25,247 nucleotides of DNA, taken from IMG/VR virus record IMGVR_UViG_3300044638_000378, positions 1 to 25,247 of that record; one strand, written 5' to 3'. Below are positions 15,133 through 21,979 of the stretch, piece after piece. Position 1 is the first letter of the stretch, and every line of letters begins with the position of its first letter. The notes under the pieces were generated by a model, which was not told where the DNA came from, made no database searches, and worked only from the letters and a program-made list of their open reading frames with translations. The stretch is from a virus. Both the position numbers and the translations under genes were made by a program.

Positions 15133-15152
15133 AAATATATTTTTTTTAAATA

Positions 15153-21227: not shown

Positions 21228-21979
21228 CTATCTAATCTTTTTTATCTGCTCATTATCGTAATCATTCTTAGCTTTTAAATAGGATAATGTATTTAAGAAA
21301 TGAATAACCTTTAATTCATATACATCCTGTAAAACTATTGCCTCGTGTTCACATACTATTTTTGCGCAGTATTGCCACCCAAAAAACTCCATAAAATTGC
21401 TGCCACCTTTTCTGCTTTCTCTACTGTCAACCCCTGTTTGTTCATACTCTCCATCAAATAATCCTTTGTAATTGGCATCCAATCGTTGAATACTTGATAA
21501 AAAAAAACAACAGAAAAATAGACTTCTTTAAAATTAGCATACAAAATATCATTAGCATATTCTTGATGCAGGTCTGAATCATATTTTAAATCTACATATT
21601 TAAACCATTTCCTTTCCTGTGGAATAACTACTGAAGCAGCAACCTTATGTAAATTAGGTATTAAGTCTTTCATAAAAAACTTGCTTTCTATGTATCTTGC
21701 AGTATTAATATCTTTAGCATCCTTTATAAACCTGTACCTTCTTTTATTTGCAATGATTCTATCTACAGGAACTCCTTCATAATTATCCTTTAAGAAATAT
21801 AATTCAGACCTGTATTTGTCTAATTCTTTTTTAGGCAGTTTATTTACTTCATTTTCAGTTAAACTGTTTATAATTGCAATTAGCTTATGTTCAATGTCCT
21901 TTTCTGTCCAATCTTTAGATGGGTTAGTTATTATTGGATACATCTGCTGATACTGCCAAACACTTATTTTGTCCCACAT
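21228..21979 (-). CDS. tail assembly chaperone, -1 frameshift product (250 aa)
   Basis: The short gene 21356-21979 (207 aa) ends in a T-TTT-TTG heptamer at 21386-21380, in phase with codons 198-200 (AGT TTT TTG). A -1 slip there moves reading to GGG TGG CAA and adds 50 residues (GWQYCAKIVCEHEAIVLQD and on) up to the stop at 21228-21230, giving a 250-aa protein. This mirrors the lambda G/GT arrangement, in which a short and a frameshifted long chaperone coat the tape measure during tail assembly. The -1 frame is open across the slip site and has no plausible start of its own for these 50 residues. The join is inferred and not shown experimentally. Confidence 0.72.
21356..21979 (-). CDS. tail assembly chaperone, unshifted product (207 aa)
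   Basis: This 207-aa, mainly helical protein begins MWDKISVWQYQQMYPIITNPSKDWTEKDIEHKL. Its core is helical (LIAIINSLTENEVNKLPKKELDKYRSEL), followed by VPVDRIIANKRRYRFIKDAKDINTARYIESK, a long aromatic helix FKEVYFSVVFFYQVFNDW and a helix ending WSFLGGNTAQK. The opening, size and helical body are those of Bacteroidota phage tail assembly chaperones, though the recognition is from memory. Like lambda G, it sits upstream of the tape measure and has a slippery site close to its 3' end. Its first 16 bases overlap the end of a 42-aa membrane peptide gene. Alone it would be the major, unshifted product. Confidence 0.8.
   Translation of the reverse strand: MWDKISVWQYQQMYPIITNPSKDWTEKDIEHKLIAIINSLTENEVNKLPKKELDKYRSELYFLKDNYEGVPVDRIIANKRRYRFIKDAKDINTARYIESKFFMKDLIPNLHKVAASVVIPQERKWFKYVDLKYDSDLHQEYANDILYANFKEVYFSVVFFYQVFNDWMPITKDYLMESMNKQGLTVEKAEKVAAILWSFLGGNTAQK
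21380..21386 (-). promoter_or_regulatory. -1 ribosomal slippery heptamer
   Basis: The minus-strand heptamer is T TTT TTG in zero-frame phase, a canonical X-XXY-YYZ site that lets both tRNAs re-pair in the -1 frame. The zero-frame stop lies 22 bases downstream. Downstream bases GGGTGGCAATACTGCGC could form a modest stem, but I do not see a strong pseudoknot. Confidence 0.75.

Follow-up and report, generated by a model that had tools for sequence, protein, structure and literature searches.

In phage lambda, a gene of the tail module gives a short chaperone product, gpG, and a -1-extended product, gpGT, which carries a separate C-terminal domain. The recoding of the lambda tail chaperone is ribosomal (PMC5009743). 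Bacterial RNA polymerase also slips efficiently in vivo on nine A or T, and U UUU UUU is a comparatively weak slippery site in E. coli (reviewed in PMC5009743). Genes expressed by transcriptional slippage, such as Thermus dnaX, the Shigella type III secretion genes and some IS elements, have a homopolymer of nine T or A followed by a functional second frame. A literature search, with most subscription journals outside its scope, found no relevant papers on frameshifted tail chaperones of flavobacterial or Bacteroides phages.

The window analysed here is the whole 25,247-nucleotide stretch of viral DNA. Like lambda gpG/gpGT, a gene on its minus strand lies in the tail module and gives two products, a short one and one that is extended in the -1 frame by a separate C-terminal domain (Table 1). 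It differs from lambda in its switch site, which is a run of nine Ts (T9) containing T TTT TTT. Past this site the zero frame runs on beside the -1 frame for 47-68 codons (16-84 codons in a sister family described below), so that each product has its own C-terminus. The gene follows the large terminase gene (TerL) and lies several genes away from the tape measure gene, and searches gave neither a sequence match nor a PDB fold match to known chaperones. With the transcriptional slippage genes it has in common the nine-base homopolymer and the functional second frame; those are not tail genes. Recoded tail chaperones are well known. What is different here is the T9 site, the long two-frame stretch with two selected C-termini, and the question of ribosome versus RNA polymerase. 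The sequence comparisons below indicate that the frame switch is real and that the gene gives two proteins, one of 207 aa and a transframe protein of 250 aa.

Table 1. Features of the recoded gene, with positions in the window
Feature	Position	Strand	Evidence or status
207-aa zero-frame product (proposed gpG-like short form)	21356..21979	minus	Kept in all relatives; AlphaFold2 pLDDT 86
-1-frame C-terminal extension, 90 aa (LSSIQRLDANYKGLF..GWQYCAKIV..KKIR), and stop	21228..21500	minus	-1 wobble pattern; linker and two-helix hairpin
Two-frame region: the 47-codon zero-frame C-terminus, overlapping the initial part of the -1 extension	21356..21499	minus	Omega-like ratios; sliding window
T9 run (nine A on the plus strand), zero frame GTT TTT TTT TAT	21499..21507	minus	Almost certain frame-switch site; invariant across relatives
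Slippery heptamer T TTT TTT, in phase and part of the T9 run	21500..21506	minus	345/345 loci; 189/189 and 116/116 distinct sequences
Heptamer T TTT TTG of the original prediction	21380..21386	minus	Present, not conserved; not taken as the programmed site

The original prediction had placed the switch further downstream, at T TTT TTG. The 207-aa open reading frame that it described, the zero-frame phase of this heptamer (AGT TTT TTG) and the 50-codon -1 continuation from the heptamer to the stop at 21230-21228, for a total of 250 aa, are all present in the window. The -1 frame was said to open exactly at T TTT TTG, but its open stretch begins 47 codons before that, at 21527. Nine codons were counted from the slippery run to the end of the zero frame, where there are actually seven sense codons between TTG and TAG. 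Overlooked altogether was the in-phase T TTT TTT, which lies 40 codons upstream of T TTT TTG. With the switch at the T9 run, the 250-aa transframe protein is made up of 160 aa from the zero frame and 90 aa from the -1 frame. Residues 1-160 are common to the 207-aa and 250-aa proteins, and their C-termini differ. The residues at the junction are V-F-F-L-S, and the predicted tryptic junction peptide of the 250-aa protein is EVYFSVVFFLSSIQR.

Homologous loci were gathered by searching viral contigs with the zero-frame protein, with the -1 tail and with profiles of each, which yielded several hundred loci. In the window's family, 345 loci had both the N-domain and the -1 tail, and 189 distinct sequences were left after duplicates were removed; together with 116 from the sister family, the set comprises 305 distinct sequences. 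The tail was in the -1 frame and the junction read TTTTTTT TAT at every one of the 345 two-domain loci. T TTT TTT was located at the junction of N-domain and -1 tail in all 189 distinct sequences of the window's family, and a conserved in-phase X XXY YYZ heptamer, in the form T TTT TTT, was present in 305/305. The run itself had nine Ts in 187/189 and ten in 2/189 sequences of the window's family. Across both families it had nine in 289 and ten in 16, and seven or eight in none, so that in all 305 the coding sequence holds nine or more consecutive A or T, as expected for transcriptional slippage. The Phe codons at the site were TTT in every case, while a quarter of the nearby Phe codons were TTC (776 TTT, 267 TTC). 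In the window's family the zero frame stays open for 47-68 codons past the site and the -1 frame for 82-91 codons; upstream, the first -1 stop comes 4-33 codons before the site (3-48 codons across both families). A sequencing error in the T run was excluded by the agreement of all 305 distinct sequences, which come from cultured phages as well as many metagenomes. Collectively, these results leave little doubt that the frame switch occurs at the T9 run.

T TTT TTG, by comparison, was found only in the window and in the near-identical contig L001 (1/189 distinct sequences). The next relatives, with 84-88% aa identity, read ATT TTG or ACT TTG at this position. The original prediction had named an alignment of homologous genes as its own check. 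In this alignment the -1 extension and both frames were kept in every relative, but T TTT TTG was not; it was missing from 188/189 distinct sequences, and as a programmed site it is refuted by that check. Although the heptamer is in phase and close to the zero-frame stop, the 100 nt 5' of it are already under -1-frame constraint, and a slip at this place is extremely improbable. It may add a little slippage in the window's phage alone.

Substitutions were counted in 84 disjoint sequence pairs by zero-frame codon position (1/2/3). Before the site the counts were 106/44/437, a zero-frame wobble pattern; in the overlap they were 176/336/274, and in the tail 50/398/94, a -1 wobble pattern. Omega-like ratios were 0.14 for the N-domain in the zero frame and 0.14 for the tail in the -1 frame. 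In the overlap they were 0.74 for the zero frame and 0.48 for the -1 frame, and the unused zero frame in the tail gave 2.32. A sliding window revealed that the mixed pattern sets in no more than some tens of bases past the T run, ~100 nt before T TTT TTG, and two-frame coding was already seen in the first 60 nt after T TTT TTT. For 26 of 27 representatives, synonymous shuffling of the zero-frame codons in the overlap left the -1 frame open in 0-2.2% of trials, and for the remaining one in 13%, suggesting that the open -1 frame is more than chance. These substitution patterns indicate that coding is in the zero frame before the site, in two frames for 47-68 codons and then in the -1 frame only, and that purifying selection acts on both frames of the overlap.

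Sequence searches found no close relatives among cultured phages or bacterial genomes. The cultured relative came through fold search alone, in which the zero-frame model matched gp38 of Nonlabens phage P12024S at ~20% identity. P12024S gp38 belongs to the sister family, which includes the cultured Nonlabens phages P12024S/L. The P12024S gene lies directly after the large terminase gene and carries CTT TTT TTT TAT CAT, and the last part of its 81-codon -1 continuation is annotated as a separate gene, gp39. It has the same N-domain as the window gene, a homologous -1 tail and the same place after TerL. Unlike the window gene, it is annotated as two hypothetical genes, and its zero frame extends just 25 codons past the site. 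We note that these two annotated genes (L360:23136-23830) are the halves of one recoded gene. Throughout the sister family, NTT TTT TTT T was present at the junction of N-domain and -1 tail (116/116 distinct sequences). Both the codon that follows the site (TAT, TAC, TGG, TTG, TTA) and the one in front of it (GTT, CTT, ATT, TTT) vary, and still the run has nine Ts in 102/116 and ten in 14/116. Profile comparison showed that the N-domains of the two families are homologous (hhalign, E 2.8e-13), and likewise their -1 tails (E 4.6e-8). In PHROG the gp38 family is phrog_32199, listed apart from phrog_38404, and both are of unknown function; phrog_38404 matches the -1 tail, and its 55 positions equal the length of gp39. 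The two entries probably belong together, which would join them into one recoded gene.

The annotation of gp38 and gp39 as separate genes corresponds to a different reading, in which the -1 open reading frame would overlap as a gene in its own right, with a start codon of its own and no fusion to the N-domain. Candidate starts do recur in the -1 frame of the window's family, with TTG at codon 6 in 170/189 and ATG at codon 36 in 140/189 sequences, and AAGGTGG stands upstream of this ATG. Shine-Dalgarno sequences are not used by genes here, however, and -1 coding constraint is already visible upstream of the codon-36 ATG. In the stretch from the upstream -1 stop to the conserved domain, 81/116 sequences of the sister family have no ATG, GTG or TTG; ATG is missing there from 107/116 of the sister family and from 49/189 of the window's family. 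We consider an independent gene very unlikely, and favour a product fused to the N-domain through the frame switch.

For the switch itself, we propose that most decoding stays in the zero frame and would give the 207-aa protein. In a fraction of cases, two tRNA-Phe in the ribosome would slip in tandem from T TTT TTT to TTT TTT at 21507-21499, and the shifted decoding would give the 250-aa protein, whose last 90 residues are predicted to form a flexible linker and a two-helix domain. The same 250-aa protein would be made if RNA polymerase slipped on T9 and added one U to some mRNAs, which would then be translated in the ordinary way; mass spectrometry of the junction therefore cannot separate the two. 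We regard ribosomal and transcriptional slippage as about equally likely. The switch at T9 combined with a ribosomal -1 slip stands at roughly even odds, and the transcriptional switch is a serious possibility that we put a little below even. We infer the ribosome, rather than RNA polymerase, as well as the ratio of the products.

The tail-chaperone precedents in the cited literature are ribosomal. The absence of an obvious stimulator, which the original prediction had remarked on, was borne out by folding, consensus folding and a Shine-Dalgarno scan. No conserved RNA structure was detected downstream of the site (consensus fold -1.03 kcal/mol with no compensatory pair; folding z-scores near 0), and a Shine-Dalgarno-like motif precedes just 1 of the 25 minus-strand genes of the window, where upstream regions are A-rich. 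The usual ribosomal stimulators thus appear to be missing, though sites of low efficiency do not strictly need one, and the lack of a visible RNA stimulator in folding and consensus folding is consistent with slippage by RNA polymerase. A downstream hairpin was considered as stimulator and rejected, as it amounted to a small invariant TATC/GATA pairing without covariation. The sequence TATCAA or TATCAT directly after the run and GAT(A) ~17 nt further on (21476-21499) vary little or not at all within the window's family, and the two could form a weak pairing.

The length of the run also bears on the question. It is nine or ten in all 305 distinct sequences and never seven or eight, lengths that a ribosomal heptamer alone would permit, and nine A/T is the length of efficient in vivo slippage by RNA polymerase (PMC5009743). 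Long A/T runs are depleted in the relatives' coding DNA whatever their phase: in 89 related loci, T runs of at least eight were observed twice against 20.6 expected, and A runs of at least nine once against 18.3 expected, making the T9 site nearly the sole such long run in this coding DNA. Against this, the depletion could stem from replication errors, and constraint on the protein can account for the two Ts that are not part of the heptamer. FF is preceded by V, I, L or F, whose codons all have T in the middle, and is followed in the -1 frame by L, V or I. The sequence therefore does not decide between ribosome and RNA polymerase. Nor is the phase of the heptamer an argument for the ribosome, since nine Ts in a row always include a T TTT TTT that is in phase. 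With a probability somewhat below even, slippage of RNA polymerase on a T9 of exactly maintained length, rather than ribosomal frameshifting, may set the tail-chaperone ratio in a widespread lineage of Bacteroidota phages, with the codons after the run encoding two selected C-termini. A T9 site that suits both machines, in phages without Shine-Dalgarno sequences, offers a clean test of which of them sets the ratio of the tail proteins, and the cultured phage P12024S lends itself to such a test.

To consider what the gene encodes, the zero-frame protein and the -1 tail were folded separately, using AlphaFold2 for the zero-frame product. The shared residues 1-160 form a confidently predicted domain, to which the zero-frame C-terminus adds two helices (zero-frame model pLDDT 86). 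In the model of the -1 tail, a disordered linker leads into a two-helix hairpin. One protein, A0A6J7WJY4 (243 aa), matched both the zero-frame model and the -1 tail, which suggests that it is a single-frame fusion of both parts. Pfam and PHROG searches with the window gene gave no match above noise, and PDB fold searches with the zero-frame model gave no match and no chaperone. Fold matches in BFVD were unnamed proteins, and named tail assembly chaperones appeared only at E 0.68, 1.4 and 3.5.

The gene order in the window is TerL, the recoded gene, genes for proteins of 236, 408 and 687 aa, and a gene for a 661-aa tape-measure-like protein (phrog_3336, E 1.1e-8). Within the tail module, the recoded gene thus precedes the tape measure gene, though not immediately as in lambda. 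In the sister family it has the same place after TerL and is followed by small neck- or tail-completion-like genes; P12024S gp49 is a weak tape measure match. What defines the gpG/gpGT class is a tail-module gene recoded into two products, with a C-terminal domain that is separate, and here a conserved -1 extension is joined to the zero-frame product at a slippery site. By this analogy, the window gene quite likely encodes a gpG/gpGT-like tail assembly chaperone. If it works as in lambda, the tape measure protein would acquire a coat of the short form, and the long form, the rarer of the two, would use its -1 domain to bring in tail-tube subunits. The original prediction of -1 recoding in the tail chaperone of a phage without Shine-Dalgarno sequences is supported, for a probable chaperone, by 305 distinct homologues, cultured flavobacterial phages among them, and fails for the site. 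The protein, which occurs in hundreds of contigs of uncultivated aquatic phages, thereby gains a probable role, and the 305-sequence set supplies an invariant switch site. A Bacteroidota host is likely for the window's phage, given its genes without Shine-Dalgarno sequences, its 33% G+C and its homology to a flavobacterial phage.

The sole other A/T homopolymer of at least eight in the window is a T8 on the plus strand at 15140-15147, between two genes. Gp10 of Flavobacterium phage 6H, a weak fold match, was rejected as sharing the arrangement; it has T TTT TTC TAT, but a -1 stop follows directly. In this gene (L361:10047-10927, minus strand), the T TTT TTC TAT is near the gene end, and a long open -1 frame lies beyond it and the -1 stop, so a different junction may operate there.
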